From positions 711,785 through 775,784 of the forward strand of contig NZ_BMJA01000002.1 of NCBI RefSeq assembly GCF_014642835.1: a stretch of DNA of 64,000 nucleotides, given 5' to 3'. Of the stretch, positions 17,431 through 44,613 are shown piece by piece (position 1 is the first letter of the stretch; each line of letters begins with the position of its first letter). The position numbers and the translations under genes are program-made. Source of the DNA: Dyella nitratireducens (GTDB taxonomy: Bacteria > Pseudomonadota > Gammaproteobacteria > Xanthomonadales > Rhodanobacteraceae). The notes beneath the pieces are model-generated. The model saw nothing but the letters and a program-made list of their open reading frames with translations. It made no database searches and was not told the origin of the DNA.

Positions 17431-17432
17431 GG

Positions 17433-18435: not shown

Positions 18436-18455
18436 GTTGAATTAAGCAATCATGC

Positions 18456-18662: not shown

Positions 18663-18780
18663 GGATATTCCGTCCCAGGTAACCTCCCATGACTCTTTAG
18701 CGCTATTGGATACGATTTCAGTTCGATCTTTCCCAGTCCGGCCCAAAGCCGGGGTGTGGTGTAACAGCCCATGACTATGA
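18456..18780 (+). repeat. direct repeat around small membrane gene, copy 2
   Basis: Counterpart of 10800-11124. Here the repeat continues naturally into the rest of the GCGVTAHDYE gene, so this is the ancestral right-hand side. Confidence 0.85.
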
Positions 18781-18958: not shown

Positions 18959-19169
18959 CTCTGAGCTAGCCTAAGTCTATGCTTAGATCACTTGCCGAAG
19001 ACTTGCGACAGGACGACGACGTTCACTTTGCAAAAACACAAAGATCGGGACGGGTTTGGTTAAGCGGCTTAACTTCTTTCTAGCTACCTTGCTGCCCGCT
19101 TTCAGCCAAATCAAACAAAGCATGGCAGGCACTTGGTGCAATCAAGCCCTCGACAAACATCGATCATCA

Positions 19170-19620
19170 ATGATGAAAAGGCGACTTAGTGTTTTGCTGT
19201 GTTTCTTCTTGGCATTCGGCGCTTATGCTACGAATTGGCTAAGTCCTCCGCCAACACTCAATCAAAAGGTTTCGGACCAAGAAGTCTCCGACTCAGACTT
19301 CTTTGAAGTTCCGGTTTCAAAGTTTGAAGCGGCTGAGGAATCTCTGAAGACGGATGCTTAATGTCTCGCTGAGAAGCAACGAGGCTTCCTATTACGGTCA
19401 CCCGGGATTTCAGTGCAGCTCGCCGAGGAGGCTTTATTTGGTACGCGCGTCCTTTGGCAACGGCGGCACCGGTAAGTTTTCGATGTACTGGCGGGGGGCC
19501 TGGCTTGTTATTTCACATATGTCGCTCGGGCCATCCGGAGAGCCTAGGCGATCCGCGCTGGTAGCCTGCCTTTCCAAGGTTCCCGTTGCTGTTTATGGCG
19601 CCATCGGTGGAGCGCTTTAA
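19170..19620 (+). pseudogene. small secreted protein split by a frameshift
   Basis: ATG 19170 begins MMKRRLSVLLCFFLAFGAYA, a signal peptide, and continues to a stop at 19361 (KFEAAEESLKTDA). The +1 frame from 19354 continues with LNVSLRSNEASYYGHPGFQC, LYLVRASFGNGGTGKFSMYW and RSALVACLSKVPVAVYG to 19620, which reads like the second half of one secreted protein of about 150 aa. A one-base change near 19357 would join them. Two overlapping genes are the alternative. No function is assigned. Confidence 0.45.
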
Positions 19621-19814
19621 CTACAACGTACCGAAACTAAAGGGGGAGGCCCGCCTCATAACGTCCACCTTCGCGCTTACGTACCTCAATTTCACGTTCC
19701 GGCAGCTACTTTTTAATTTCAGCGCACCGTGACGCATGCCCGCGGGCGTGCGAAAAACGCCGGGGCATCGGATCTGCCCCAGCGGAAGTTCGTTACCGAG
19801 CCGGGCCGGGAGCG

Positions 19815-22800
19815 ATGTTCAAGACCAGCCAATCCGTTCTGTTGCAGGCTGCATTACATGCCCATTCGGCGGCCGAATCCTTGGCGGCGGCCGAGCAATC
19901 GATGGAGCCGGCGCTGCGGGCGGAGTTGTTCAGCGCCGAGCAGATGGAGCAGCACGGCATCGGGCTGGCCAAGCAGCACAAGCTGAGCCCGCGCTCGTCC
20001 TCGGATCGGCTGCTCAAACGCCTGGATGAAAACGCAACGCTACTGGTGCAGGCGTGTGAAGCGTTGACGGCGGCGGCCAAGAGCAGCCGGCGCATGTCGC
20101 CGGCGGCGGAATGGTTGCTGGACAACTACTACCTGATCGAAGACCAGATCCGCATCGCGCGTAAGCACTTGCCGCGGCGCTACAACCGCGAGTTGCCGTG
20201 CCTGGTGCAGGAAGGCGAGGGCAGTGGCTTGCCGCGCGTATACGTGCTGGCGCTGGAAACCATCTCGCATGGCGATGGCCGGGTGGATGATGAAAGCCTG
20301 GGCCGTTTTATCACCGCCTATCAGAGCGTGCAGCCGCTGAAGCTGGGTGAGCTGTGGGCCATTCCCATCATGCTGCGCCTGGCGCTGATCGAAAACCTGC
20401 GCCGCGCGGCGGTGCGTGTGCTGTCGGATTGGCGTTACCGCGACCAGGCCGGCAAATGGGCCGATCTGCTGGTGGAGATCGCCGAGCGCGATCCAAAGAG
20501 CGTGGTGATCGGCGTGGCCGACATGGCGCGCTCCGATCCGCCGATGACCAGCGCTTTTGTGGCGGAACTTGCGCGCCGTCTGCAGGGGCAGAGTCCCGTA
20601 CTGGCGATGCCGCTGACCTGGGTGGAGCAGCGCCTGGCTGAAACCGGTTCCGGCATTGAACATGAATTGCAGCTCGAAGCGCAGGAGCAGGCCGCCAACC
20701 AGGTTTCCGTCGGCAACAGCATTGGCACGCTGCGTCATCTGTCAGCGATCGATTGGCATGCGTTCGTCGAGCGCTTGAGCATCGTCGAGCAGGCGTTGCA
20801 GAAAGATCCGGCTGGGGTGCATCCGCACATGGATTTCGCCACGCGCGACCAATACCGCCACGTGATCGAGCGGTTGGCGCGTTCGAGCAACTTTGCCGAA
20901 GGCGAGATTGCGCAGCAGGCGGTCGAACTCGCCACGGCCCACGCGACGGAGCACACGGTCGCCGGCATCGGCGCACACGTAGGCTATTACTTGATCGACG
21001 AGGGGCTGCCCGCGTTAGAACAGAAGGCCGGCTACCGCTATCACGCGTGGGCCAACCTGCGGCGCGCGCTGCAACGTCACGCGCTGGTGTTGTACCTGGG
21101 CATGACGACCTTGCTCACGCTGGCATTCGCCGTACCGATGGTGCGAGCCGCCAGCATCAGCGGATTTCCGGATTGGGCGCTGGTGCTGATTGCCATCCCG
21201 GCTTTGCTGGCCACCAGCCAGTTCGCGCTGGGGCTGGTGAACTGGATTGTCACCGTGACGACCTCGCCCAGCATGCTTCCGCGCATGGATTACGCACGCG
21301 GTGTGCCACCTGCCTCACGCACGCTGGTGGCGGTGCCGGCCTTGCTGGGCAGCGCACAAGATGTGGAAGACATGATCGAAGCGCTGGAAGTGCACTTTCT
21401 GGCCAACCGCGACCAGAACGTGCACTTTGCCCTGCTCAGTGACTTCAAGGATGCGGACGAGGAATGGCTGGAAAACGACCAGCCCATCCTGCGTCTTGCG
21501 CGGCAACATCTGGAAGCCTTGAACGCGAAGTACGCTCCAGGTTCCGGTGATCGCTTTTTCCTGTTGCATCGTCCTCGCCGCTTCAATGCCGCGGACAAGC
21601 TATGGATGGGCTACGAGCGCAAGCGCGGCAAGCTCACCGATCTCAACAACCTTCTCCGCACGGGCAACACGGCAGCGTTCATGCTCACCGTGGGGCCGAT
21701 GGAGTCGCTGCGCAGCATCCGTTACGTGATCACGCTGGATGCGGACACCCAGCTGCCGCGCGACACCGCGCAGGCGTTGGCCAGTGTGATGGCGCATCCG
21801 CTCAACCGCCCGGCGTACGATGCATCGACAGGCCGCATGCTGCGCGGCCACGGCATTTTGCAACCGCGCTTGGGCATCAGCTTGCCCAGCAGCGGCCGCT
21901 CGCGCTACGCCATGCTGTTCGGCAGCGAAGTGGGTATCGATCCGTATACACGCATGGTGTCGGATGTCTATCAGGATTTTTTCGGTGAAGGCTCCTTCAT
22001 CGGCAAGGGCATCTACGATGTGGAAGCCATCGCGCAATCGCTGGATGACCGCTTCCCCGACAACACCATTCTCAGCCATGACCTGATCGAAGGCTGCTAT
22101 GCCCGCTCCGGCCTGCTCAGCGATGTGCCGCTGTATGAGGAATACCCATCCAGCTACGTCGGCGATTACCAGCGCCGCCACCGCTGGATTCGCGGCGACT
22201 GGCAGTTGCTGCCGTGGATGTTGTCGCGCGTGCCCGACGCACAGCGCGAGTGGGTGAAGAACACGCTGGATGGCCTGTCGCGCTGGAAGATCTTCGACAA
22301 TCTGCGGCGCAGCCTGGTGCCGCCTTCGTTCGTGGCCTTGCTGCTGATTGCCTGGCTCGGTTTCACGCAACCGATCATCTGGACGGTGGCGATACTGGCT
22401 TTGCTGTTTACCTTGCCGTTGTTGTCCTCGCTGCTGGCGATCGTGCAAAAGCAGGAAGACATCACGCTCACCTCGCATCTGAAGTCCGCCCTGACGCCGG
22501 CCGGCCAGCACATCGCACGCGCGCTGTTCAACCTGACCACCTTGCCGCACGAGGCGTATTACAGCCTCGATGCGATCGTACGCACGCTATGGCGCATGGC
22601 GGTGAGCGGACGAAACCTGTTGCAATGGCGCACCTCGCGCGACGTGGCGCAGGAAGGACCGCACACCGCCGCGCGCACGTATCGCTTGATGTGGGTCAAT
22701 CCTGCGCTGGCTGTGTTGACGGCTGCAGCGGTGTGGTCGCGTCAGCCGCTGGCGCTCGCGCCAGCCGTGCCGGTATTGCTGCTGTGGTTCCTCGGCCCGG

Positions 22801-30948: not shown

Positions 30949-31032
30949 GCCTCACCGTCATTCCGGCGAAGGCCGGAATCCATCGCCAGTACGAAGCATG
31001 GATTCCGGCCTTCGCCGGAATGACGGTGAGGC
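30949..31032. repeat. palindromic repeat, family B (complete)
   Basis: GCCTCACCGTCATTCCGGCG (30949 on) is perfectly inverted at the right end (… GACGGTGAGGC, ending 31032), about 36 bases per arm with a short spacer. A long hairpin this close to the pgm stop may also serve as a transcript end. Confidence 0.9.
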
Positions 31033-31273
31033 GAGAGTTGACTTGAACGCTAACCTTTAGCCCCCGTACTCGTGTCCGCATTCCTCGGGCATGGGATGCT
31101 CCTGGCTGGGCGGACGTCAACGCTTTTTCACATATGGGTTCGACCGGCATCAAAGGGGCGTGCGGGGCTGGACATCGTTGTCATTTCGCCGACAAAATCG
31201 CAGTTGCTGCAGGCGGGCCTGCGCTAGGCTCGCTTTCCAATGGCTGCTGCCACGTAACGCGTGAGGGGATGTC

Positions 31274-32296
31274 ATGGCGAACGTCGAGTTGAGGCCGGTG
31301 GTCCACGTCGACAATGAGTGGCGCCGATGGATTGCCGAAAACCTGCTGCTGGATGGCCCGCCGCAGGCTATCTACGAACAGATGCTGCAAGCGGGCATTG
31401 CGCATGAAGAAGCCGTGCAGGAAATTCAGCAGGCGATGACCAGCCCTTACATCGTGGGTGCGCAGCGCTTGCGCAACCGCCTGGCGAAACACGATTGGGT
31501 GCTGGAAGCGCAGCGTCACATGAATCGCCTGCGCGACACGGAGGTGCCGCGCCGACACAAACTGTCGCGCGAGGAATTTCTCGACGCGTACTACACGGCC
31601 GGCCGCCCGGTCATCATCACCGGCATGATGGACGACTGGCCCGCGATGACCAGGTGGAGCCTGGATTATTTCAAGGAGCGCTGCGGCGATCGCGAGGTAG
31701 AGATCCAGTTCGGCCGCGATTCGGATACGCAATACGAATTGCGCAAAACGGCGCATCGCAAGACGATGCTGTTCGGCGATTACGTCGAGATGGTGCGCAA
31801 CGCCGAGCGCAGCAATGATTTCTACATGACGGCTTACAACGAGGGCAAGAATCGCAAGGCGCTCGACGTGTTGTGGCAGGACATCGTGCAGATTCCCGAG
31901 TACTTGAACGGCAATGATTCAACACAAGGGTTTCTGTGGTTCGGTCCACCCGGCACCATCACGCCGTTCCATCACGACCTCACCAACAACTTCATGGCGC
32001 AAGTGATGGGCCGCAAGCGCATCCTGCTGATGCCGGCGTGCGAGATCGCTCACGTCTACAACCACGAACACTGCTTTACCCATGTGGATGGCCGACAGAT
32101 CGACCTGCAGCGCTATCCGCGCATGGCCGGCGTGCAGGTGCTGTCGTGCACCTTGAATCCTGGCGAAGTGCTGTTCTTGCCGGTCGGTTGCTGGCACTTC
32201 GTGGAAGGGCTGGATATGTCGGTGACAGTGTCGTTTACCAACTTCCTGTGGGATAACGATTTCACGGCGGAGTATCCGCAGCAGCAAGTCTTTTAG
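31274..32296 (+). CDS. Cupin_8 (JmjC-like) Fe(II)/2-oxoglutarate oxygenase-like protein
   Basis: A 340-aa soluble protein. The N-terminal 100 residues are helical. From about 105 the cupin-like part begins (FLDAYYTAGRPVIITGMMDD). The metal triad appears as the His-x-Asp of TPFHHDLTNNF (about 229-238) and the distal His of VGCWHFVEGLD (about 306). LFLPVGCWH is the usual late motif of the FIH/JmjD-like family, whose members hydroxylate amino acid side chains. The target here is unknown. GGGGATGTC with a short GAGGGG precedes the start. It stands alone between two family-B palindromes, so it could be a single-gene unit. Confidence 0.8.
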   Translation: MANVELRPVVHVDNEWRRWIAENLLLDGPPQAIYEQMLQAGIAHEEAVQEIQQAMTSPYIVGAQRLRNRLAKHDWVLEAQRHMNRLRDTEVPRRHKLSREEFLDAYYTAGRPVIITGMMDDWPAMTRWSLDYFKERCGDREVEIQFGRDSDTQYELRKTAHRKTMLFGDYVEMVRNAERSNDFYMTAYNEGKNRKALDVLWQDIVQIPEYLNGNDSTQGFLWFGPPGTITPFHHDLTNNFMAQVMGRKRILLMPACEIAHVYNHEHCFTHVDGRQIDLQRYPRMAGVQVLSCTLNPGEVLFLPVGCWHFVEGLDMSVTVSFTNFLWDNDFTAEYPQQQVF

Positions 32297-32322
32297 TTTG
32301 GGCTTGCGAGTAACGTGACCTG

Positions 32323-32450
32323 GCCTCACCGTCATTCCGGCGAAGGCCGGAATCCAGTTTAAATATGCGTCCGAAGGACACAACATGTTTTATGTTGAGT
32401 GCTTCGCACGACTCATTTGTACTGGATTCCGGCTTTCGCCGGAATGACGA
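32323..32450. repeat. palindromic repeat, family B, with longer spacer
   Basis: The left arm (GGCCTCACCGTCATTCCGGC) starts at 32323 and the right arm (GATTCCGGCTTTCGCCGGAA) ends at 32450. The spacer is about 65 bases instead of the short one at 30949, so the arms are two elements set head to head. Confidence 0.85.
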
Positions 32451-32501
32451 TTCGCTTTGAAGTGGAACTCACGCGAGCGCCAGGTTTGCAGCGCACGAGG
32501 G

Positions 32502-32527
32502 AGCCCCTTTCCCGAAGGAAAGGGGCT
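32502..32527. terminator. intrinsic-terminator-like hairpin
   Basis: AGCCCCTTTCC, CGAA loop, GGAAAGGGGCT: an 11-bp perfect stem with a stable tetraloop between two convergent genes. The following CTT is a weak T run on the plus strand. It may serve either direction. Confidence 0.6.
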
Positions 32528-32570
32528 CTTCATGCCGGAGGTTTGCAGGGTGGCCGCCGGCGATGAACTG

Positions 32571-34355
32571 TCAGCCCTTCGTAATGACACTCACGGACAC
32601 GAAGGTGTATCCCATCGCCTGCAGGCCTTGCACGATCTGCTTGAGGTAGCTGATGTCCAGGGTCGGATCGATAAAGAAGCTTTGCACGGCATCCTGGATC
32701 ACCGTGTTGCAGTTGGCGCTATACAGGATGTCGGCCGGAAAACGTGGCGGATTGTTGTTGTATTCCACCAGTTCGACGTCGCCCAATTGTTCGGGCATCA
32801 CCACGGAACCGAACACGTTGCGTACCAGGTACGGATAAAACTGGCCGTAGATGCGGGTGTAATCCGGTGTCCCTGTTCCGCAAGCGCCATTCGGGCACCA
32901 GCCGATGGCATACAAGTCGCGTTGAGACATCGCATGGAAGTTGGATTGGAATACCTGGTAGTCGACCGCCGAGGCGGCATAGTGCGGCGGTACGAAGACC
33001 GTGGGCAGGATCAAACCCGCCTTGGCGAATTCCTGGAAGCCGGCGGTGACGCGTGCCTGCGTCCATGATGCGGAATCGACCGGCACGGGGGCGTCAAAAA
33101 TCACGTAGTTGGACGAGTCGATATGTGCCGTATAGAACTCGAAATCGTCACCACTGACACCGGTGTAGGGATTGTCGATATTGGAATATTGATGCGTGTA
33201 ACCATGCATCATCATGACGCCGCCCCTGGCTTCCATGTATTTCAGTGCACTGACCAGGGCCGTGGCCTGATACAGATGGATCGATACCGGCACGCCATTG
33301 TTGTAGTAGCCGTTCGGATCCACGTAATACGGAATCAACGCGACGCTGAAAGGCACGTTCTTGCTGTACAGGTAGTCGGCGATCGCACGCAACTGGGCAG
33401 GGCTGTCTTCCGCATCCACGTCCTCAATGCGCACCAGCGCACGTTTGCGTGACAGCATGTTCGGGTTGGATACCTTGCCGATCAGGTCGATGGCCGCCAG
33501 GTAACGATCGTTCGGGCCGGTATAGCTGAAAGGAATCTCGCCGATATAGGTGAGATTGGCACCCTTGGTCGCCCAGTTGACGGTGCCGCCAGTGTCGTTG
33601 GTGGCGACAGCCAATACCTGCGCCTTGGTGGAATCGTTGATGGTTGTCTGCAGCAGGCCGGAAGGCACGGCCAGCGCATTGCGTTGCAGCGCGATGTTCT
33701 TGTAGGTCACCGTCAAGGTGTTGGAGAAGTCGAAGTACATCGGTGTGAAGCCGTATTGCCCGGCGAAATTCGTAGCGCGCGCAGACAGCTGCCAGATGTT
33801 GTCGTTCATCCACAACACCGGCTTGGTGGTCGCCAGTACGTCGTCCAACAGCGCGGTGGGCAAGGGCTCGCCATAGGTCGAGCCGATGTAGATCAATCCC
33901 GTGTAGCTATTGAGTTCGCCCGCAACGTAGTTCACGGCGGGCTGCAACGTGTATTTGCTGCCGTGCGTGACAAGGTTGCCGGCCATGACGCCATAGGCTT
34001 CGCCCAGCCAACCCCATTGCCCGGTGATGTCATACAGCACGAGCGTGTTCTGGTTTGGATTTGCACCCGGCGCGGCAGCGTAAGCATTCGCAGCGGCCGT
34101 CACCGCGGCCTTGATCGTGTGCGTGATGGTGCTCGATATGTTCGACACCTGCTTGGCCGATATCTGCACTTTCGGCAGTGCTGCGTGAGGTGGCGGCGGT
34201 GGCGCAGGCAAGGCCGCGCGATCAAGGCTCGGCATCATGCTGCCTTGGGCTGCATGCGCAACGGACATCGGGCCGGATGCCGCGAGTAGCGCCACTGCAA
34301 CGCCGAGGAGGAAAGATTGAAAACGAGATGGCCCGCAGAGTGATGGTCTGAGCAT
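32571..34355 (-). CDS. secreted DUF2334 protein (polysaccharide deacetylase-like fold)
   Basis: A 594-aa exported protein. ATG at 34355, preceded by GAGGGAAA, gives a proper signal peptide (SFLLGVAVALLAASG, cleavage near AHAAQ); the frame is open further up but without signal logic. A Pro-rich linker follows, then a ThuA/GATase-like region (about 60-290, LVLYDITGQWGWLGEAYG). The DUF2334 domain comes from about 300 on (RIEDVDAEDSPAQLRAIADY), with HGYTHQ near 380 as the candidate metal-binding motif of the NodB-like fold. It is divergent from the wecB-nfr operon by 409 bases. A role in de-acetylating or otherwise editing the exported polymer is plausible, not proven. Confidence 0.75.
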   Translation of the reverse strand: MLRPSLCGPSRFQSFLLGVAVALLAASGPMSVAHAAQGSMMPSLDRAALPAPPPPPHAALPKVQISAKQVSNISSTITHTIKAAVTAAANAYAAAPGANPNQNTLVLYDITGQWGWLGEAYGVMAGNLVTHGSKYTLQPAVNYVAGELNSYTGLIYIGSTYGEPLPTALLDDVLATTKPVLWMNDNIWQLSARATNFAGQYGFTPMYFDFSNTLTVTYKNIALQRNALAVPSGLLQTTINDSTKAQVLAVATNDTGGTVNWATKGANLTYIGEIPFSYTGPNDRYLAAIDLIGKVSNPNMLSRKRALVRIEDVDAEDSPAQLRAIADYLYSKNVPFSVALIPYYVDPNGYYNNGVPVSIHLYQATALVSALKYMEARGGVMMMHGYTHQYSNIDNPYTGVSGDDFEFYTAHIDSSNYVIFDAPVPVDSASWTQARVTAGFQEFAKAGLILPTVFVPPHYAASAVDYQVFQSNFHAMSQRDLYAIGWCPNGACGTGTPDYTRIYGQFYPYLVRNVFGSVVMPEQLGDVELVEYNNNPPRFPADILYSANCNTVIQDAVQSFFIDPTLDISYLKQIVQGLQAMGYTFVSVSVITKG

Positions 34356-34764
34356 GGGATTTCCCTCGCGCAAAGACGAAGACAACGCGCAACAGCCGCT
34401 ATGCCGCCCTGCGCGCATGGCTGTGAATGCGATTCAATCCCGAAAGCCCAGGCCCCTGTCCCGTGTAAGGAACGCCTCGCCGTGGAAGAGATTACGTCGA
34501 AGCGCTCGATTTGTCGACTAGCAAATTATTTGTATCGAGTCAATATGCCTATAACAATAAAATAATGAAAATAATGTGTTTACTTAACTCGTAGTTGGCA
34601 ATATGGCGCACAGCGCAGCTTTTTGCGCCGAACTGCCAGCGCATTCACCGATTCCGTCCACTCGGAACATGCGCGGTCCGCTGCTCGCGACTGGGCATTA
34701 GGGGGCGAGGACAGGATGTTCGGGAAGCAGGGTGGTGTCGCCATCCTGCACGTGAGGGGGATGT
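34356..34764. promoter_or_regulatory. AT-rich divergent control region
   Basis: No gene is present. The interval 34515-34600 is strikingly AT-rich (runs such as AACAATAAAATAATGAAAAT) compared with the GC-rich surroundings, and separates the DUF2334 gene from wecB. It probably holds both promoters and could bind a nucleoid protein or a regulator of exopolysaccharide genes. I could not fix a -35/-10 pair with confidence. Confidence 0.5.
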
Positions 34765-35877
34765 ATGCAGGACATCCTGATCGTTTCCGGCACGCGGCCG
34801 GAGATCATCAAGCTGGCGCCGTTGTATCACTGCCTGCATGCAAGTGGTTGGGCGCGACCGCACTGGCTGCACACCGGGCAACATGGCGAGATGGCGCAGC
34901 AGATGCTCGCCTGTTTCGACATCATTCCCGACATGGCGCTTGAGCGCGGCGGCGATGGCTTGTGCGAATTCAGCACCTGTTGCCGCCAACTGCTCGACAA
35001 CGTGATGGCAGATGGTGCGTGGTCGCTGGTGCTGGTGCAGGGCGACACCGAAAGCACCTTCCTCGGTGCGCTGTGCGCCTACTATCGCCACATTCCTGTT
35101 GCGCACGTCGAGGCGGGTTTGCGCACTTACGATCTGGGCCGGCCCTTTCCCGAAGAGGGATTGCGCCAGATGGTCAGCCGCATCGCCAGCTTCCACTTTG
35201 CGCCGACCGAGCGCGCGGCGCTTGCGTTGCGTCGAGAAGCCATTTCTGAGGAACGCATCAGCGTCACCGGTAATACCGTGATCGATGCGCAGCACTGGGT
35301 GGTGCAGCGCCATCGTTTGCAGCGTCGCATGGAAGGGCGCGGCCATCTGCTGGTGACGGCGCACCGCCGCGAAAACTGGGGCAGCGATCTGCGCGAAATC
35401 TGCTATGCGATCGCTGATGTGGCGAACCATCATACCGAGCTGCAGGTGTTGTTTCCTGTGCATCTCAACCCGGTCGTGAGCAAGCCCGTGCACGCGATCC
35501 TTGGCGGTTTGTCCAACGTGCGCTTGAGTCCGCCGCTGGATTACCTGCAGATGCAGCAGGCGCTGCTCGATGCCTGGCTGGTGCTGACCGATTCGGGCGG
35601 TTTGCAGGAAGAAGCCCCCACCTTTGGCGTGCCATTGCTGGTGCTGCGCACGGAAACCGAACGGCCGGAAGCGATCGAGGCCGGTTGCGCGCGGCTTGCC
35701 GGCACGCGGCGGGCATCCATCGTCAATCAGATCGAGGCGTTATGGTCGGATGCGGCTGCCTACGGTGCCATGGCACATGCGGGCAATCCATTCGGCAACG
35801 GCACGGCCAGCGTGCGCGTCGTCGGTCGGCTCAAGAGAGCACTTGCCAGCGACGAGCGCAGGCGCGAAGCGAGCTGA
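34765..35877 (+). CDS. wecB: UDP-N-acetylglucosamine 2-epimerase (non-hydrolysing)
   Basis: Converts UDP-GlcNAc to UDP-ManNAc in the cytoplasm. The 370-aa length and motifs fit: SGTRPEIIKLAPL at 7-19, HTGQHGEM near 36, QGDTEST near 92, HVEAGLRTYDLGRPFPEEGL near 114, TAHRRENWG near 195 and TDSGGLQEEAPTFGVP near 273. The family usually has PWPEEANR; here FPEEGLR, so it is a divergent branch. AGGGGG precedes the start by four bases. It heads the operon with nfrB 16 bases downstream. In E. coli, wecB is needed for the NfrA/NfrB-dependent N4-glycan although it sits elsewhere, so its place here strongly links it to the same polymer. Confidence 0.9.
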   Translation: MQDILIVSGTRPEIIKLAPLYHCLHASGWARPHWLHTGQHGEMAQQMLACFDIIPDMALERGGDGLCEFSTCCRQLLDNVMADGAWSLVLVQGDTESTFLGALCAYYRHIPVAHVEAGLRTYDLGRPFPEEGLRQMVSRIASFHFAPTERAALALRREAISEERISVTGNTVIDAQHWVVQRHRLQRRMEGRGHLLVTAHRRENWGSDLREICYAIADVANHHTELQVLFPVHLNPVVSKPVHAILGGLSNVRLSPPLDYLQMQQALLDAWLVLTDSGGLQEEAPTFGVPLLVLRTETERPEAIEAGCARLAGTRRASIVNQIEALWSDAAAYGAMAHAGNPFGNGTASVRVVGRLKRALASDERRREAS

Positions 35878-35893
35878 GCCAGCGAGGTGCCCC

Positions 35894-38119
35894 ATGTGGT
35901 GGCTCGACGCATTCTCGACCTATCTCTACGCGCTGGGCGCGGTGGTCATCGTCATTGCCTTGCTGATTTTGATCAGCGGCCTGGATGATTTTTTCATCGA
36001 CGTCGTCTACTGGACGCGGCGCCTGTGGCGGTCGTTGTTCGTCTACAACACGTGCGAGCACATGCTGTACCACCAGTTGTACCGCCCGGCGGAAAAACCG
36101 CTGGCGATCATGGTGCCGGCATGGCAGGAAACCGGTGTGATCGGCCCTATGGCCGAGCTGGTGGCCACCACCCTGGATTACGAGAACTACCACATTTTCG
36201 TAGGCACGTATCCGAACGACCCGGATACGCAACGCGACGTGGACGAAGTGTGTGTGCGCTTTCCCAACGTGCACAAGGTGGTGTGTGCACGGCCCGGACC
36301 GACCAGCAAGGCCGACTGCCTCAACAACGTGCTCGATGCGATCTTGCAATTCGAACAGCGTGCGCGCATGACCTTCGAGGGATTCATCCTGCACGATTCT
36401 GAAGACGTGGTGTGCGAACACGAGCTGCGCCTGTTCAATTATCTGGTGCATCGCAAGGACCTGATCCAGATTCCGGTATATCCCTTCGAACGGCAGTGGA
36501 ACAATTTCACCAGTCTGCATTACCTCGATGAATTCGCCGAGCTGCATGGCAAGGATGTGCCGGTACGCGAAGCGCTGGCGGGCCAAGTGCCCAGTGCGGG
36601 CGTAGGTACCTGCTTCAGCCGGCGCGCCGTGCTTGCCTTGATCGAGGAAGGCAACGGCATTGCGTTCGATGTGCAGAGCCTCACCGAGGATTACGATATC
36701 GGCTTGCGCTTGAAAGCACGCGGCATGGAAGAGATCTTCGTGCGCTTTCCGGTGCTGCGCTACCAGCGGCATCCCAAGCAGCCCGACCGGCTAGGCCAGA
36801 GCCGGCACGAGGCCAACGTGGTCTGCGTGCGTGAATATTTCCCGGACCGCCTGACGACGGCGGTGCGGCAGAAATCGCGCTGGATTATCGGCATCGTCTA
36901 TCAGGGTTATCGCACCCATGGCTGGAAGCGCAGCCTGGTGCTCAACTATTTCCTGTGGCGCGACCGTAAGGGTGCCATCAGCAACTTCGTCAGTTTTGCC
37001 GCCATGCTGATCATGCTGCAGCTTGCCGCCGTCGGCCTGCTGCAGCTGGTGTGGCCAAGTGCGCCGCGCTTCGTGTCGATCTTCGAAGGGCAGGGCTGGT
37101 TCGACGGGGTGCTTGTCGCGAACGTCGCGTTGATGGGTAACCGCATGCTGCAGCGGATCATCTTCGTATCCGGCTATTACGGCGTGAAACAGGGGCTGCT
37201 TTCGATCCCGCGGTTGCTATGGGGCAACTTGATCAATTTCATGGCGAACTGGCGTGCGATTCGCCAGATCATCCGCTGCGGCGATCCGCGCCGGGTGGCA
37301 TGGGACAAGACGACGCACGATTTTCCCAGCATCGGCGGGGAGAACCACGCCAAGCGATCGCTGGACGAAGTGTTGGTCGACAACGGCGTGATCTCCGCGG
37401 CGGACTTGCACGATGCACAACTGCATCGCATCGATGGCCTGCAACTGGGCAGCTCGATGATTCACGAAGGCCGCATCACGGCCGAGCAACTCGCGGCTCC
37501 CATCGCCGAACAGATCGGCGTGTCTTGCGAATCGGTAGACCCCGCCAGCCTGCCACGCGAATTGCTGATGGCCGTGCCCCGGCACGTCGCGCTGCATTAC
37601 GCCGTGCTGCCGCTACGCGTCGAGAGCGGCACGCTGGTGCTTGCGAGCGAGTCGTACATCGATCCGGTGTCGCTCGCCGCCATCGCACGCCAGCTCGGGC
37701 GGCGCGTACGTTATGTGATCGCGTACAAGGGCCAGGTGACGGTTGGTCTGCGTCGCTGGTACGCGCATGCAGAGAAGGGCGATCGCGATCCTCATCATCT
37801 GCTTGAAATGGCCGCCGACCGTGGGTTGATCGCGCGCGAACGTGTGTCTCAGTTGTGGAACGGGTACATGTCGCGCCAGGTGATGCTGGGCGAGATTCTG
37901 GTTGCGCAAGGCCATTTGGATGAGGTTGCGTTCCGGGCTTTGCTGCTCAATCACGCGCGCAGCGAGCAACGGCTTGGCGAATTCCTGATCGAGCAGGGCG
38001 TGATCAGCAAGGAAACCTTGCATCGCCTGCTGCGCTTGCAAGCGTCGTTGCAGCCCAGCGTGACGAGCCTGCTTGAACAGGAATGCGCCAGCTTCCAGCG
38101 GCTGGAGCGTGCCTCATGA
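35894..38119 (+). CDS. nfrB: NfrB-like processive glycosyltransferase with c-di-GMP-binding-type C-terminus
   Basis: A 741-aa inner-membrane protein (E. coli NfrB is 745). The ATG follows GAGGTG. N-terminal membrane helix (about 11-33), then a GT2 catalytic domain: HDSEDVV, LTEDYDIGLRL and RQKSRWIIGI, equivalent to the DXD, TED and QxxRW motifs of processive synthases. Two or three more helices lie near 365-450. From about 486 there are MshEN-type repeats; the last, RLGEFLIEQGVISKETLHRL near 693, fits the c-di-GMP motif RLGxxLxxxGxIxxxxLxxxL very closely, while the earlier three are less perfect. This implies activation by c-di-GMP, as reported for E. coli NfrB. The stop overlaps the nfrA start (ATGA). 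Confidence 0.9.
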   Translation: MWWLDAFSTYLYALGAVVIVIALLILISGLDDFFIDVVYWTRRLWRSLFVYNTCEHMLYHQLYRPAEKPLAIMVPAWQETGVIGPMAELVATTLDYENYHIFVGTYPNDPDTQRDVDEVCVRFPNVHKVVCARPGPTSKADCLNNVLDAILQFEQRARMTFEGFILHDSEDVVCEHELRLFNYLVHRKDLIQIPVYPFERQWNNFTSLHYLDEFAELHGKDVPVREALAGQVPSAGVGTCFSRRAVLALIEEGNGIAFDVQSLTEDYDIGLRLKARGMEEIFVRFPVLRYQRHPKQPDRLGQSRHEANVVCVREYFPDRLTTAVRQKSRWIIGIVYQGYRTHGWKRSLVLNYFLWRDRKGAISNFVSFAAMLIMLQLAAVGLLQLVWPSAPRFVSIFEGQGWFDGVLVANVALMGNRMLQRIIFVSGYYGVKQGLLSIPRLLWGNLINFMANWRAIRQIIRCGDPRRVAWDKTTHDFPSIGGENHAKRSLDEVLVDNGVISAADLHDAQLHRIDGLQLGSSMIHEGRITAEQLAAPIAEQIGVSCESVDPASLPRELLMAVPRHVALHYAVLPLRVESGTLVLASESYIDPVSLAAIARQLGRRVRYVIAYKGQVTVGLRRWYAHAEKGDRDPHHLLEMAADRGLIARERVSQLWNGYMSRQVMLGEILVAQGHLDEVAFRALLLNHARSEQRLGEFLIEQGVISKETLHRLLRLQASLQPSVTSLLEQECASFQRLERAS

Positions 38120-41019
38120 AACAGACCTTGCCGAGCCGTTGTGCGTTGGCGCTGTTCATCATGGTGCCTGCCTGGCCGCTGTGTGCAGAGAGCCAGGCGT
38201 CGCCCGGTGACGGCAGCCGCTATCAGCACTTTATGGTGTATCCGCACCGGCAAGCGGGTTATGCGGCCATGCGCGTTGGCGACGAGCGCACCGCCATCGC
38301 TGAATTCACGCGTGCGCGCGAGCTTGCGCCGCAGAGTGTGGATACAGCCTTGGACCTGGCTGAAGCGTACCGGCACTTCGGCCATGCCGCGCAAGCGCAA
38401 ACGGTATTGAACGAGCAGATGCGCTACACACCGAACGATTCACGGCTACGCGCGGCGATGACACCGCCCGCCTCGCCGGCCGTGGACTGCAACCGCGACA
38501 ACCGGCCCGTATGCCGCGCCAAGCGCGGCTTCGGCGACCTGCAGACGGGCGATCTCGCTCGCGCACAGGCCGAGCTTGATGCCCCCGACTTCGCCGCCAG
38601 TCCGGAAGGCCGCCGCTTGCGCCATGCCCTGGTGCAGCGGGCGATTTATATAGGCGACGACCAACGTGCCGTCACGCAGCTGGCCGAACTGGATGCACAC
38701 GACAAGCTCAGTAGTGACGAGCGCAATCAATGGTTCATGCTGTTGCTCAAGCTGGGCAAGCTCGATGCTGCGCAACAGCTGCAATCGCGTGGCGGACTGG
38801 ATGCGCCAACGCAGCAGCTGTCCATGGCGCAGGCGATGGGAAGCAGTGGCGATCGCAAGCTGCTCGCGTCGTACATGGCGGTGCATCAGCCCACCTTCGC
38901 CAACGCGAAGGACGAGCGGCAATGGATCAATCTGCTGGCGATGGCAGGGCGCATCCAGCCCGCGCTATTGGATCATTACACGGTGCGCTTTCCCGCCAAT
39001 GCGGCCTGGCAGGCGCGCGCTGCGCTGCCCTTGGCGATGATGCGCGGCGACCTTACGGTGGCTGGCAGCATGCTGTCCCGCCTGCCGGCGGATGGCTTCC
39101 ACGAGGAGCGCTTCAGCCTCGATCTGCAGCAAGGTCGATATGCCGAAGCGCAACAGCAGGCAGAGATGCTGATCGCACAACCGGACGGTTATCGTTTGCT
39201 TGATCCGCTCAGCTATCGCCTGATGGAAGCCGGCGCGCTGCATGGGGCGAAGCAACTGCTGCTCGATGCGTATCCGTTTACCGGCAATACGCATTCGGCG
39301 GCTTTATGGGCTCGCCTGGCAGTGTTGGCCGGCGAGCAACCGGCGCTGTTCTCGGCCGACGATCGCATACGCCTGCGTCGGCCGCTCGATAGTGTGACGC
39401 TGCGTGTTGCACAGTTGCAGATTCTGGGTGCGTTGCGTGATTGCGACGGTATCCACCAGGTGATGGCCGATTTGTCGCCGGACTATCCTGCCGAGCTATG
39501 GCGGCAATTGGGCGACTGCTATGGCAAGGATCGTCCTGGCCTGGCCGAATATGCCTATGCGCAAGCCGGCAAGCGCAAACCCAGCATGGATACGACACGC
39601 GCGCTGGCGTATCAGGCCTATAGCGCGCAGGACTATGAAACGGCTCTGCTGGCCTGGCGTTCCGTACCGGCAGCGCACATGGGGCAGGCTGATCTGATCG
39701 CTGCCGCCACTACTGCGCTCACCATCCACGAAACGGCCGTGGCGAGCGCATGGCTGGATACCTATGCGGCGCAAGGCGGAAAGCAGGACGGGACTTACTG
39801 GTGGCTGCGCGCGCAAGCCGACGAGCCGCACGATCCGGTGCTGGCGAGTACGGATCTGGAAAACGCCGTCGATGTGCAGCCTGATCCGCGCTACTACGCG
39901 CGGCTTGCCGCGTTGCAAGCCCAGGCGGGTGACGCGCAACAGGCGCTGGCTTCATGGCAGCACGCAAGCGCGCTCGCTCCCGATGACGGCGGCTTGGCCG
40001 CATCGCTCGGCTATGCCTACCTGCAAGCCGGAGAGCCGCAGAAAGCTCTGGTGTCATTCGAGCGCGCACATCAAGCGGATCCGGATAATCCGGCATTGAC
40101 CCGCCAACTGCTGTACGTGAACCAGCGGTTGGGCGATTACGCACGGGCGCGGTTCTACGATGAGCAGGCGATCGATCAATTCGGTGCAGTGGACCCTGAC
40201 GGAACCAGCAGCGATACCAAGCAAGACCAGGACGCGCTCTATAGCCTGCGCCGGCTGCACGAAAACCTTGGCCGTACGTGGAGCTTCAACGCCGACATGT
40301 CGTTGGGCGACACCGTATCTTCGGCTGCCAATACCGTGGCGCCCGGTGTTTCCTATCGAAGCTATGCGCAATGGGAGGCTCAATATCATCTCGACCCACA
40401 GCTCACCGGAGGGGACCTCAATACACTTACGGCTTACGCGCGCCTGTTTGCCGGCAGCGGCGTCAGCGGCGCGGTGTGGCCGGTGCACGAAGCGATGCTT
40501 GGTATCGGTGTGCATTGGAAACCGCTGATCTCGCAAAACATCGTGCTGTCGGTGGAGCAGCAGACCCCTGCCGACAACAGCCGCGATACGCACAACGACA
40601 CCTTGTTGCGCGCCAGCGGTTCATGGTCGTTTGGTCCGAAACTTAGCGACGACTGGCACGCGAGCGGGTGGGGGTGGCCTGCGCAGAATTTCTATGTCGA
40701 CATCGCGCACTACCTGCGTGCCAAAGAAAGCGTCGTCACCCTCGATTACCGGTTCGGATTGCATGACAAAATCGCCAGCGGACAAACCATCGAGCCATAT
40801 ATCCATCTGCAATACACCGGCATCGACCGCTCGCAAGGCTTGACCTATCTGCGCGACGGACGTGCTGGCCTCGGCGTGCAGTGGAACGTGTGGTACGGCG
40901 AAACGCATTACGACGCTTATCCGCATCGTTTCAGCGTCGCGGTGGAAGGGCAGCACGCCTTCACCACCTATCTGCGTGATAGAAACGCGGTATTCCTGAT
41001 CGTGAGGACGCAATGGTGA
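38116..41019 (+). CDS. nfrA: NfrA-like outer-membrane exopolysaccharide porin with TPR domain
   Basis: A 967-aa protein (E. coli NfrA is 990). The ATG overlaps the nfrB stop and gives a signal peptide (ALALFIMVPAWPLCAES). The large middle part is helical, with TPR units visible at about 45-105 (GYAAMRVGDERTAIAEFTRA) and near 580-680 (ALASWQHASALAPDDGGLAA, AYLQAGEPQKALVSFERAHQ). The last 270 residues form the NfrA C-terminal beta-barrel, ending in a terminal aromatic residue (VFLIVRTQW), as expected for outer-membrane insertion. In E. coli, NfrA is the phage N4 receptor and is thought to export the NfrB-made glycan, the TPR part acting as periplasmic scaffold. It overlaps the next gene by seven bases. 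Confidence 0.88.
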   Translation: MKQTLPSRCALALFIMVPAWPLCAESQASPGDGSRYQHFMVYPHRQAGYAAMRVGDERTAIAEFTRARELAPQSVDTALDLAEAYRHFGHAAQAQTVLNEQMRYTPNDSRLRAAMTPPASPAVDCNRDNRPVCRAKRGFGDLQTGDLARAQAELDAPDFAASPEGRRLRHALVQRAIYIGDDQRAVTQLAELDAHDKLSSDERNQWFMLLLKLGKLDAAQQLQSRGGLDAPTQQLSMAQAMGSSGDRKLLASYMAVHQPTFANAKDERQWINLLAMAGRIQPALLDHYTVRFPANAAWQARAALPLAMMRGDLTVAGSMLSRLPADGFHEERFSLDLQQGRYAEAQQQAEMLIAQPDGYRLLDPLSYRLMEAGALHGAKQLLLDAYPFTGNTHSAALWARLAVLAGEQPALFSADDRIRLRRPLDSVTLRVAQLQILGALRDCDGIHQVMADLSPDYPAELWRQLGDCYGKDRPGLAEYAYAQAGKRKPSMDTTRALAYQAYSAQDYETALLAWRSVPAAHMGQADLIAAATTALTIHETAVASAWLDTYAAQGGKQDGTYWWLRAQADEPHDPVLASTDLENAVDVQPDPRYYARLAALQAQAGDAQQALASWQHASALAPDDGGLAASLGYAYLQAGEPQKALVSFERAHQADPDNPALTRQLLYVNQRLGDYARARFYDEQAIDQFGAVDPDGTSSDTKQDQDALYSLRRLHENLGRTWSFNADMSLGDTVSSAANTVAPGVSYRSYAQWEAQYHLDPQLTGGDLNTLTAYARLFAGSGVSGAVWPVHEAMLGIGVHWKPLISQNIVLSVEQQTPADNSRDTHNDTLLRASGSWSFGPKLSDDWHASGWGWPAQNFYVDIAHYLRAKESVVTLDYRFGLHDKIASGQTIEPYIHLQYTGIDRSQGLTYLRDGRAGLGVQWNVWYGETHYDAYPHRFSVAVEGQHAFTTYLRDRNAVFLIVRTQW

Positions 41020-41915
41020 TGCGCACATGGCTACGCTTCACGCTGCTGCTGTGGCTGCTCACGCCATGCCTGGCCTGTGCGTCGACGGCCATCATCTATC
41101 AGCCGCAGCTGCGCGATCGTGCCGTCGCCGAGACGCAGTGGCCGCTGCTCTTCACGCAATTGCGCGCGCAAGGTTTCGACACGCTGGTGGTGCAATGGAC
41201 GCAATACGGCGATGCGTTCAGCGATGCCGAAGGCCATGCTTGGTTGCTGCGGCGCGTGCGCGAGGCGCGCAGCGCGGGGTTGAGCATCGTGCTTGGCTTG
41301 AACAGCGATCCCGCTTTCTTCCAGCGGCAGGAGGCGTCGACCGCTGCGCTGGGAGGCTATCTGCACACGCTCTCGCGTCGCAATGACGCTTTGGCGCATG
41401 GGTGGGTGAATGATTTGGGCGTGGAAGCCATTGACGGCTGGTATCTGCCTTTGGAGATCGACGATAGACGCTGGCGCGATCCTGCAGCGCGCAAGGCATT
41501 GCAGGAATATCTGGTTTCCGAACGCCGCCAGCTCGATCGGATTGCAGCGCGACCGGTGTATGTCACCTCCTTTTTCGCCGGCAATATGGCGCCGGAACGC
41601 TACGTGGAACTGCTCGACGACGTGCAGCGCACGGGGGTACGAGCATGGGTGCAGGATGGCGCGGGAACCGGGCATCTCAGCGAGGGCGAGCGCAAGCTGT
41701 ATCTCGATGCAGTCGGTCAATGCACGGCGGCACACGTACACGGCATCGTCTTCGAGATTTTTCACCAGATCGGCGAAGACAAGGCGTTCAGTGCCACGGC
41801 GTTGCCCAATGCCAACGCAAGCACGGCCTTGGCGCAACGTGCACCATGCGGTGGCGACAGTGTGTTCTTTGAGTTGCGTTACCTGCCGGAGATGGCGGGG
41901 GTGATGAAGCGGTAG
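41013..41915 (+). CDS. DUF4434-family periplasmic protein (YbcH-like)
   Basis: A 300-aa exported protein with a signal peptide (RFTLLLWLLTPCLACASTA). The mature part looks like a TIM-barrel: FTQLRAQGFDTLVVQWTQYG, GLSIVLGLNSDPAFFQ, VEAIDGWYLPLEIDD, RPVYVTSFFAGNM. This is the layout of DUF4434, a glycosidase-like fold. In E. coli a gene of this kind (ybcH) follows nfrA-nfrB, so the order supports a shared pathway, perhaps trimming or releasing the polymer. The start overlaps nfrA; GAGG lies six bases upstream. An ATG at 41019 is equally possible. Confidence 0.8.
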   Translation: MVMRTWLRFTLLLWLLTPCLACASTAIIYQPQLRDRAVAETQWPLLFTQLRAQGFDTLVVQWTQYGDAFSDAEGHAWLLRRVREARSAGLSIVLGLNSDPAFFQRQEASTAALGGYLHTLSRRNDALAHGWVNDLGVEAIDGWYLPLEIDDRRWRDPAARKALQEYLVSERRQLDRIAARPVYVTSFFAGNMAPERYVELLDDVQRTGVRAWVQDGAGTGHLSEGERKLYLDAVGQCTAAHVHGIVFEIFHQIGEDKAFSATALPNANASTALAQRAPCGGDSVFFELRYLPEMAGVMKR

Positions 41916-41954
41916 GGCGTGGCGCCCGAAACGCTTGCTTCGTGCAGGAGGCAT

Positions 41955-41989
41955 CGCGGACGAAGGCTCGTGGCGAACCTTCGTCCGCG
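41955..41989. terminator. hairpin between convergent operons
   Basis: CGCGGACGAAGG (41955-41966) pairs perfectly with CCTTCGTCCGCG (41978-41989) over 12 bases with an 11-base loop. It lies between the end of the nfr operon and the convergent glycosidase gene, so it likely ends transcripts or protects 3' ends in both directions. Confidence 0.5.
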
Positions 41990-42010
41990 CATGCTGCGCT
42001 TACCTGCGCA

Positions 42011-42988
42011 TTATTGCGGAACCTTCAACGGTGCGATCGTCTGATCGAGCGTGCTCCAGTATGCCTTGGTGTACGGCACCATCTCTTCGGCGTAATACCA
42101 CCAGAAGAAGCCGCCGATGAACTTCGGATCCTTGAAGCTGTTGACCATCGGGTAGTACGTCTTGATCAGGCCCGTCTGTACCGACGTGGGCGCGCCGGTG
42201 CTGGACGTGCCGATCTCGCCGAAGCCCACTTTCGCGTTCGGGAAGATGCTTTCGAGTGCACTGAAATCAGAGCTCCACGAAGGCGACAATCCTGGGCAAT
42301 CCTGGTACGGGTAGTAGCTGAAGAGCGCGTAGTCGGTACTCTGCAGAACGGAGGCCGGCAGGAACGTTGTGGGCCAGGTCTTCCAGTAATCCTGGGGCTT
42401 TTCCCAGCAATTGTTTCCCTTGCTGTCATCGTTGTAATACAGCGTGACCGCGGTCTTGCCGCCCGCGGCTTTCACGATAGCGCTGGCGGCGGCGACCATC
42501 TGCCCGATCTGCGTCTCTTCCGCATTCACGACGCTGTTGCTGCCATCCGGATTCTGGCGCAGCCATTCGCCGTTGATCTCGTTGGCGATCTCCCATACGT
42601 CGACCGTGCCGTTCAAACCGTTGACCAATTCCTTGGTTCGCGCGGTGTACGTGTTGATATTGGTCGGGAAGTAATACGAGTCCATGATTTCGCCCATCAC
42701 GTTGGCGACGGCGTGCAGCTTCACCAGTGAGGGGTAGTACTCGGCGGCGGTGGTGCCCGGATCGAACACCACGCGAACGGTGGGACGATACGGCAGTTTG
42801 CTTAGCGAGGTGATGATGGCGTTGAGGTTGGAAAGATCATCCAGGGTCACGCCGTAGATCGGTGCTTTCAGGGTCGCTGCAGCTTGTGCGTCGGCATTCG
42901 ACGCCAACGGCGCGGATGCTGCAAAAAGAGCGACGGATGCGGCAAGTGGAGCAAGAAGTTTTTTCGTTACGGGTGCAAGTTTTCTCAT
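42011..42988 (-). CDS. secreted TIM-barrel glycoside hydrolase (clan GH-A type)
   Basis: A 325-aa exported protein. The signal peptide covers about residues 1-35 (APLAASVALFAASAP). The catalytic features of clan GH-A are visible: VWEIANEINGEW with acid/base Glu137 after strand 4, and AKVGFGEIGTS with nucleophile Glu258 after strand 7. FWWYYAEEM near 290 gives the usual strand-8 Trp. I cannot place it in one GH family with certainty. It faces the nfr operon tail to tail, so a role in cutting the NfrAB polymer is possible but only by proximity. The region after its 5' end, 42989-43553, is non-coding. Confidence 0.75.
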   Translation of the reverse strand: MRKLAPVTKKLLAPLAASVALFAASAPLASNADAQAAATLKAPIYGVTLDDLSNLNAIITSLSKLPYRPTVRVVFDPGTTAAEYYPSLVKLHAVANVMGEIMDSYYFPTNINTYTARTKELVNGLNGTVDVWEIANEINGEWLRQNPDGSNSVVNAEETQIGQMVAAASAIVKAAGGKTAVTLYYNDDSKGNNCWEKPQDYWKTWPTTFLPASVLQSTDYALFSYYPYQDCPGLSPSWSSDFSALESIFPNAKVGFGEIGTSSTGAPTSVQTGLIKTYYPMVNSFKDPKFIGGFFWWYYAEEMVPYTKAYWSTLDQTIAPLKVPQ

Positions 42989-43553
42989 CGATTCGAGTTC
43001 ACATACGGTGGCGCTCCTTCGCCTGGTTTAATGTTGTGGCAGTAACGCAAAGCTTTTGGCCACGACATGACGGCGGCGCCGCAAATGAAAGATGCGGCTC
43101 CGAACTTGGTCGTGCTTATCCGAGCACCATGGAAATCATCCGTAGAACGGCTTGATCGTCTTCCCCTGAGCGCCGAAACGCGAAAGATGATGGGCAGCAG
43201 CCGTTTGGAGTGCCTGCGAAACGTCGAGTACTGCGAACGGTCGACATGCCGACCACCATTCGCTGCGCCGCACGGTGCTTCCCGGGCGGTTGGGAAGCCG
43301 TGCGGTACCTATCCTGGGAATGACGCACCTGGATAACGCGGGCCGTTGGGAGTCTAGCGATCGATCCCGCGTGGGAATCAAAAATTGGTTAGATCGAGCT
43401 ATGTGGCTGCTTTTTTTGTGATCGATCTCACATGGATGCAACTTGAAAAGACTTCGCCGTTCCAGAAGCAGACAGCCACGCGGTTGAGGCGGGAGCCCTG
43501 GCATTACGCACAACCGTCCCCACGTTGGGAGCTTCCTTGCATGGGCCTTACGC
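42989..43553. other. non-coding 565-bp stretch with one bulged hairpin
   Basis: Divergent intergenic region between the glycosidase and the flavin oxidoreductase genes. GCACGGTGCTTCCC (43271 on) pairs with GGGAAGCCGTGC with a two-base bulge around an eight-base loop. GTAACGCAAAGCTTTTGGCC near 43040 recalls one strand of a c-di-GMP-I riboswitch, but the other half is missing. No convincing gene or repeat otherwise. Confidence 0.4.
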
Positions 43554-44543
43554 ATGATCCCTTTTTCCGTACTCGACCTCGCCCCCGTCATCGAAGGCAA
43601 CACACCCACGCAAGCCTTCGCCAATACCCTGGATCTTGCACGCTGGGCCGAGCAACTGGGCTATACCCGCTATTGGCTGGCCGAGCATCACAACATGCCT
43701 GGTATTGCCAGTGCGGCGACGGCGGTGTTGATCGGCCACGTGGCTGGTGGCACGTCGACGATCAGGGTAGGGGCGGGCGGCATCATGCTGCCCAATCACG
43801 CGCCGCTTCAGGTGGCCGAACAATTCGGTACGTTGGCTTCGCTGTATCCGGGACGCATCGATTTGGGATTGGGACGTGCGCCGGGTACCGATCAAGCGAC
43901 GGCACGTGCATTGCGCCGCTACTACGAAGGTGCGGAAACTTTTCCCAACGACGTGCAGGAGTTGCTCGCCTACTTCGAACCTGCTGCACCGAGCCAGCTT
44001 GTGCGTGCTGTACCTGGCGCTGGGATTGAGGTGCCGGTGTGGCTGTTGGGATCAAGCTTGTTCAGCGCGCAACTCGCGGCTGCACGGGGTTTGCCGTTCG
44101 CCTTCGCCTCGCACTTCGCTCCGGATGCGATGGATGAGGCACTGATGCTTTATCGACGCGATTTCAAGCCTTCTGCGCGTCTGGAAAAGCCGTACGCCAT
44201 GCTTGGTGTCAACGTAGTGGTTGCTGAAACGGATGGTGAGGCACGGCGCTTGTTTACGTCGCAGCAGCAAAGCTTCGTCAATTTGCGGCGTGGGCGACCT
44301 GGACTGATTCCGCCGCCGATTGACGATATGGATGCGTATTGGGCGCCGCATGAGAAGGCCATGGTGGAGCGTGCGCTGGCCTGCGCCGTCGTGGGTGATC
44401 GGGATATGGTGCGGGACGGCTTGGCGGCGTTTATCGCACGGCATCGGCCGGATGAGTTGATGGTGACGGCGAATATTTTTGATCATGCGGCGCGGAAGCG
44501 GTCGTTTGAGTGGGCGATGCAGGCGCGCGAGATGCTCCCGTAG
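43554..44543 (+). CDS. YhbW-like LLM-class flavin-dependent oxidoreductase
   Basis: A 329-aa luciferase-like monooxygenase family protein. It matches the E. coli YhbW type over the whole length: [12 protein letters not shown] at the start, [20 protein letters not shown] near 41, [20 protein letters not shown] near 80, [16 protein letters not shown] near 100, [15 protein letters not shown] near 160 and [13 protein letters not shown] near 205. The family binds FMN and uses reduced flavin; no natural substrate is known for YhbW. It is a single gene, with a family-A REP directly overlapping its last codons (44540-44613). Confidence 0.88.
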
Positions 44544-44613
44544 GTTGGGGTGCAAACCCCAACATCGAGATCTATGCAGGCATGGCAACGTTGGGGTTTT
44601 CACCCCAACCTAC
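44540..44613. repeat. REP-like palindrome, family A
   Basis: GTAGGTTGGGGTGCAAACCC with inverted partner ending at 44613 (one arm has GGGGTTTTCACCCC instead of GGGGTTTGCACCCC). It lies exactly between the ends of two convergent genes. Confidence 0.9.

Follow-up and report, generated by a model that had tools for sequence, protein, structure and literature searches.

In Escherichia coli, the receptor for phage N4 is the NGR glycan, made by NfrB, NfrA and YbcH together with WecB. According to the accessible part of PMC8669472, its structure is only postulated to be ManNAc-based, a K15A substitution leaves WecB inactive, and a G491L substitution in NfrB abolishes killing by N4. The same source describes an Achromobacter (A. 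xylosoxidans) cluster with nfrA, nfrB, wecB, a bcsB homologue and O-acetyltransferases (PMC8669472), and the available text of another paper states that the organisms identified without another wecB all have one directly associated with nfrB (Junkermeier & Hengge, 2021; PMC8669469). In the accessible accounts of Bacillus subtilis, the ydaJKLMN genes encode a glycosyl hydrolase, a c-di-GMP receptor, a glycosyltransferase and YdaL, and ydaLMN are needed for the polymer (PMC5422440; PMC13274460).

Here I analyse a 64,000-nucleotide stretch of Dyella nitratireducens DNA (the window) that carries a variant of the Nfr system with the following features.

32297-43553, no strand: extent of the exchangeable module, the gap between the cupin_8 and luciferase-like genes (from comparison within the genus)
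32571-34418, minus: DUF2334 gene, divergent to wecB, predicted CE4-like polysaccharide deacetylase/esterase (PF10096, 170.8 bits)
34419-34764, no strand: divergent DUF2334-wecB intergenic region, presumed to hold the promoters
34765-35877, plus: wecB, non-hydrolysing UDP-GlcNAc 2-epimerase (UDP-GlcNAc to UDP-ManNAc; TIGR00236, 388 bits, cut-off 210)
35894-38119, plus: nfrB, processive GT2 synthase with an MshEN domain and a second, C-terminal MshEN-like pair (NF008411, PF13632/PF13641)
38116-41019, plus: nfrA, TPR repeats and outer-membrane NfrA_C barrel, predicted export pore (PF13283, TPR hits)
41013-41915, plus: ybcH (DUF4434), modelled as a periplasmic glycosidase-type TIM barrel (PF14488, 106.8 bits)
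42011-42988, minus: gene for a secreted glycosidase-like protein, facing ybcH in convergent orientation (Pfam gave no match above cut-off)
43417-43432, plus: CRP/Clp-type palindrome without mismatch, 5' of the glycosidase gene (pattern scan)

The original prediction of four tightly spaced or overlapping genes is confirmed: wecB, nfrB, nfrA and ybcH are all present and form one tight operon on the plus strand (34765-41915). The longest open reading frame of nfrB opens at 35624, inside wecB, and homology places its start at the ATG at 35894, so that the two genes are 16 bp apart; nfrA, starting at 38116, overlaps the end of nfrB by 4 bp, and ybcH, starting at 41013, overlaps the end of nfrA by 7 bp. 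The prediction ended the unit there, and in this it needs correcting: the DUF2334 gene and the glycosidase-like gene also belong to it.

Full-length NfrB (>1100 bits) was found in 19 of 233 genomes of the family Rhodanobacteraceae, in six genera and patchily in five of them. Exactly these 19 genomes also contain the long form of DUF2334 (>170 bits) and the glycosidase (E up to 1e-10), a count that is not a probability because the species in the set are related and not independent. A weaker-scoring form of DUF2334 (at most 106 bits) occurs in 17 other genomes of the family. Regions were fetched from 18 relatives with full-length NfrB and from one genome (G223) with a divergent NfrB-like gene (673 bits), which was kept out of the 19 and on whose 12.4-kb contig no other module protein was matched. 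wecB lies directly 5' of nfrB in all 19 genomes, the window's own included, and this adjacency is thus not a matter of chance. The DUF2334 gene is the divergent upstream neighbour in 18/18 of the relatives fetched, ybcH follows nfrA in 17/17 (one contig ends within nfrA), and the glycosidase gene is convergent downstream in 14 of 18.

Comparison within the genus sets the limits of the unit. The genes flanking it are separated by only 60-823 bp in 11 of 16 genus genomes (by 95 bp or less in eight of these), an empty site, and by 11.08-11.26 kb in three, where the extra DNA contains the six genes; the remaining two lack one or both flanking genes. In one of the 11 (G078; contig 11, L150 and L151) the module sits at another place and the usual site is empty. 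The best reading is that the module has been gained or lost as one six-gene unit.

Do the two outer genes simply ride along? On that account, this is a plain, published Nfr operon in which four genes matter and two flanking genes hitch-hike on a horizontally moved island. A four-gene core with wecB is indeed already known, and an island moving en bloc would yield co-occurrence without function. Moreover, among the best 80 of 132 named nfrB loci, where the relatives nearest by NfrB are Dyella and then Rhodanobacter, Frateuria and Oleiagrimonas, wecB is directly upstream of nfrB in 43 (once as a fragment), and most have neither outer gene: DUF2334 was found in 21 (14 from Rhodanobacteraceae, seven of Burkholderiales type) and not in the other 59, some of them on short contigs, and the glycosidase in ten, which are ten of the 14 Rhodanobacteraceae loci, with none in loci from outside the family. 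Neither outer gene, then, is a general component of Nfr loci. However, four of the 19 family genomes still have the glycosidase although it is separated from the operon (in G085 it lies some 7 kb beyond ybcH, and in G098, G140 and G141 on another contig), DUF2334 adjoins nfrB in the seven Burkholderiales-type loci in a different order and strand, and it also lies next to wecB and a GT2 gene in Streptomyces. Its active-site residues, furthermore, are invariant. I therefore regard hitch-hiking of the outer genes as quite unlikely. The module is a real, well-bounded variant of a known system.

The DUF2334 protein has, by inspection, a Sec-type N-terminus. Across all 28 aligned DUF2334 rows, Streptomyces and Burkholderiales included, R330, E332, D333, H405, H409, D425, P478 and H479 are invariant, and each row thus contains ED332-333 and H405xxxH409, a CE4-like ligand pattern; in the deacetylase domain of CE4-type enzymes an Asp and an HxxxH motif bind the metal, and the residues here are candidates for that role. 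No Pfam deacetylase, CE4 families among them, was matched even at E 5. Judged by this pattern, its probable role is to deacetylate the polymer or to hydrolyse it in some other way. As a control of the search, PF10096 was found in B. subtilis, whose YdaL is presumably a DUF2334 protein. Of 250 Comamonadaceae genomes, 16 contain an NfrB-family gene (E up to 1e-80) and four contain DUF2334 (E up to 1e-25). In three of these four, DUF2334 is no more than about 4 kb from an NfrB-family gene; it is missing from 13 of the 16. Among open-licence papers (supplementary figures apart), none of the matches listed contains nfrB and DUF2334 together, DUF2334, deacetylase and polysaccharide were not found together, and in wider searches no title among the matches listed draws such a connection.

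Several other arrangements of DUF2334 were encountered. A Burkholderiales metagenome-assembled genome has three tandem DUF2334 genes downstream of nfrB (L112, about 15700-21000). On a Burkholderia plasmid (L179, 5477-16270), DUF2334 lies between two diguanylate cyclase genes, and no wecB or glycosyltransferase is annotated within 17.5 kb, a stretch for which the gene table is incomplete. On a Comamonadaceae plasmid (L180, 4800-13746), EAL and PAS-domain genes enclose genes for WecB, an NfrB-like glycosyltransferase, DUF2334, a TPR protein and DUF4434; the glycosyltransferase is 515 aa long, and its match to the NfrB model is confined to the first two thirds.

The product of the gene at 42011 was assessed for clan GH-A by a TIM barrel with Asn-Glu at strand 4 and Glu at strand 7, on a fold model of middling confidence (pLDDT 71). 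It is probably a secreted, separately transcribed glycosidase that acts on the polymer outside the cell. A search of 50,697 phage records gave no phage-borne copy, and among plasmids there was a single, distant relative, from a Fusobacterium record of 2.1 Mb.

The upstream region of this gene suggests that it likely has a promoter of its own. The CRP/Clp-type palindrome is the sole perfect match in the 64 kb (with up to one mismatch, two were found against 1.73 expected), and a site with zero or one mismatch starts 437-446 bp upstream of the glycosidase in all four genus loci that have the gene; a CRP/Clp-type regulator perhaps controls it. A block of the form CTAACC...TTTTGAT...TAGACT follows the palindrome in nine of 19 glycosidase upstream regions under a strict pattern, and a leader of about 330 nt ahead of the gene is conserved (upstream stretch 42989-43392). 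Despite this conservation, I do not claim a structured leader RNA, because no more than six of 30 predicted pairs showed changes in both partners, with a covariation term of -0.7. A known RNA or riboswitch was likewise sought over 31000-44600 (E up to 1), and the only Rfam match was a sub-threshold WsnRNA46; it coincides with a palindromic repeat at 32312-32466, in the space separating the cupin gene from DUF2334, and this is probably a dispersed repeat. In the intergenic region at 34419-34764, no Rfam match, no sigma-70-like site and no CRP-like site with up to two mismatches was found. Scans for promoters and terminators returned fewer sites than shuffled sequence.

The product at 38116 was predicted to be an NfrA-like protein, and it proved to match the C-terminal barrel domain NfrA_C (PF13283) at 130.8 bits as well as TPR_19, so that both TPR repeats and barrel are present; its score against the full NfrA model (NF007302) is 602 bits, below the cut-off of 1223. 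YbcH likewise falls below the cut-off of its own model (NF007404, 312 bits against 344). Clan GH-A enzymes are TIM barrels in which strands 4 and 7 each end at a catalytic Glu; the structure model of YbcH is a glycosidase-type TIM barrel, and the glutamates at both catalytic positions are conserved. On this model, YbcH probably acts as a glycosidase in the periplasm, clearing or trimming chains, which makes it a candidate enzyme open to testing instead of a scaffold. Searches at sequence level for PDB relatives of YbcH, the glycosidase and the DUF2334 protein gave nothing meaningful. The YbcH-type gene had been presented as part of the E. coli N4-receptor machinery; in the accessible literature, YbcH is dispensable there for N4 infection.

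The predicted supply of UDP-ManNAc by WecB is supported. The operon wecB is the sole copy in a search of the genome, which fits the rule of Junkermeier and Hengge (PMC8669469), and its product retains the equivalents of K15 and five more active-site residues. The E. coli numbering of those five is assumed here. All six are kept in 53/53 nfr-linked WecBs of the alignment. In the family, 13 of the 19 nfr genomes have the operon wecB only and six have a second copy (counted at E up to 1e-30); since all 19 retain the operon copy, the linked wecB is kept even beside another.

In a maximum-likelihood tree of 74 WecB rows (the 53 nfr-linked, 20 unlinked from the family and E. coli WecB), 45 linked sequences form one clade with support of 100/96 that contains no unlinked row and not E. 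coli WecB. Its members come from Rhodanobacteraceae, Chitinibacteraceae, Burkholderiales, Aeromonas, Vibrionaceae, Lysobacter and one Acidobacteria metagenome-assembled genome. The remaining eight linked WecBs fall outside, and in five of these cases wecB is encoded on the opposite strand. Here "linked" means anywhere within a fetched nfr locus, the unlinked rows were hand-picked from about 80 further family rows, several of them have long branches (a warning of the tree tool), one fragment (L119) was left out and two rows (L034 and L135) are identical. The window's epimerase thus groups with nfr-linked enzymes only, apart from the 20 sampled unlinked WecBs and that of E. coli.

What does the synthase polymerise? 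Of the ManNAc-based polymer that was predicted, the part that stands is a source of UDP-ManNAc linked to a synthase and an exporter of NfrBA type; the identity of the polymer I infer from it. UDP-ManNAc could instead be one of two substrates, or be modified before use, and the product something other than plain poly-ManNAc. The ManNAc structure of the E. coli glycan is itself a postulate (PMC8669472, accessible part), and the extra modifying enzymes in the module point to a modified product. On the other hand, the module contains a single GT2, and none of the three full-length NDP-sugar dehydrogenases in the genome reaches the UDP-ManNAc dehydrogenase cut-off; there are five family matches, two of them short, and for the three full-length proteins the top-scoring models are those of UDP-Glc or UDP-GlcNAc dehydrogenases. 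A second substrate or a prior modification is therefore possible, though on balance doubtful.

NfrB scores 1142 bits against NF008411, just below the cut-off of 1170. The equivalents of E. coli D169, D267 and W330 are conserved in the alignment, and the motifs TED264 and QKSRW326 complete the D, TED, QxxRW active site. For the search of named loci, the NfrB query was an alignment in which the window row starts 15 bp past the ATG and several rows have over-long N-termini; the residue counts below come from an alignment with the correct window start (35894).

Control by c-di-GMP as in E. coli had also been predicted. An MshEN domain is matched (43.8 bits), but E. coli G491, which lies within the first MshEN motif, is replaced by Asp in the window, and the E. 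coli mechanism does not simply carry over. The replacement is a property of the family: Asp or Glu occupies this position in 15/15 Rhodanobacteraceae NfrBs, whereas Gly occupies it in 67/67 others. The second Gly of the first pair (G519) is kept in 13 of the 15, the window included; in the other two (L032 and L033) it is Cys and Tyr, and only the C-terminal pair stays intact there because both first-pair glycines are lost. That C-terminal pair (LGEIL/LGEFL) is intact in the window and has both glycines in 15/15 Rhodanobacteraceae. Because the first motif has lost its Gly while the C-terminal pair is intact, c-di-GMP sensing may have moved to the latter in this lineage. Rhodanobacteraceae share an intact C-terminal pair with other families: Vibrionaceae (6/6) and Comamonadaceae (4/4) NfrBs keep all four glycines. 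Aeromonas and Moritella NfrBs have lost the C-terminal glycines.

These substitutions could also mean that c-di-GMP control has been lost, with the first MshEN broken, the C-terminal pair structural and NfrB constitutive or gated by its expression. The family-wide Asp or Glu at the G491 position, the further loss of the second Gly in two of 15 proteins and the failure of E. coli NfrB G491L to support N4 killing (PMC8669472, accessible part) are all as expected from such a loss, as is the lack of a GGDEF motif in the open reading frames of the 14 named Rhodanobacteraceae loci. Against this, the C-terminal pair keeps both glycines throughout the family, whereas in Enterobacteriaceae its first member has Ala in 25/25 rows with a letter there, and the window's C-terminus scores 54.5 against the NCBIfam c-di-GMP motif, above the cut-off of 38. 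I consider outright loss of control rather unlikely and favour a shift of the sensor. The replaced Gly offers a natural experiment in the gating of NfrB by c-di-GMP.

At this point, the reading that I find reasonably likely is a variant Nfr/NGR exopolysaccharide system encoded as one six-gene unit with its own precursor supply and modifying enzymes. Judging from gene content, protein families, co-occurrence, the empty site, the wecB clade and residue patterns, WecB would convert UDP-GlcNAc to UDP-ManNAc, which NfrB, by homology with E. coli, would polymerise in the inner membrane upon binding c-di-GMP, a signal more likely read by the second, C-terminal MshEN-like pair because the first motif lacks its key Gly. 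NfrA, again by homology with E. coli, would guide the chain across the periplasm and outer membrane. YbcH would clear or trim chains as a periplasmic glycosidase, the DUF2334 protein would deacetylate or otherwise hydrolyse the polymer, and the secreted glycosidase, from its own transcript and perhaps under CRP/Clp-type control, would cut it outside the cell. The system thus probably deacetylates and trims its own polymer.

More speculatively, Rhodanobacteraceae might possess a complete NGR-type ManNAc module to make, export, modify and degrade a polymer, gained and lost as one unit and with sensing moved to the second MshEN pair, and the set of wecB, GT2, DUF2334 and a hydrolase of GH-A type may recur, as far away as Streptomyces, as a general toolkit for ManNAc polymers that are deacetylated; I hold this broad version only tentatively. 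The link between wecB and nfrB is not new, as PMC8669469 reports it for genomes without another wecB; what is added here is the extent of the unit (six genes), the nfr-linked WecB clade, the altered MshEN glycine with its possible shift of the sensor, and the reading of YbcH as a glycosidase. In the 2021 work, the chemistry of the NGR polymer is no more than a postulate. The putative hydrolase and deacetylase that this lineage keeps with the synthase could serve as enzymes to digest and identify the polymer, perhaps that of E. coli too.

Finally, how does the locus compare with its counterparts? It resembles the E. coli system in its synthase, exporter and YbcH families and in its UDP-ManNAc supply. 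However, the E. coli wecB lies in the ECA cluster and not inside the operon, the window adds DUF2334 and the glycosidase, and in the MshEN part of its NfrB the first Gly is replaced and the C-terminal pair preserved. The nfr operons of the Pseudomonas soli type, in the accessible text, have wecB clustered with nfrB as in the window, and some of these and of the A. xylosoxidans type contain extra modification genes; compared by text, the modifiers are acetyltransferases in A. xylosoxidans and DUF2334 and a glycosidase in the window. B. subtilis ydaJKLMN likewise combines a hydrolase, a glycosyltransferase, a c-di-GMP receptor and YdaL, but in the available accounts the receptor is a separate protein (YdaK), no wecB or outer-membrane part is named, and lectin data point to Gal/GalNAc. 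The Comamonas testosteroni locus (L120; wecB-nfrB-nfrA-DUF2334-DUF4434) has the same families as the window, DUF2334 included, although all its genes are on one strand, it has no glycosidase of the window's family and its NfrB, unlike the window's, keeps the glycines of both MshEN pairs. On a plasmid of Streptomyces sp. NBC_01237 (L178, 3658-10671), wecB and a GT2 gene, the latter not an nfrB, run divergently from DUF2334 and a GH113 gene; the window's NfrA, YbcH and glycosidase have no match among the five proteins tested. I regard this locus as a possible Gram-positive cousin without NfrB, its DUF2334 protein being 43% identical to that of the window.
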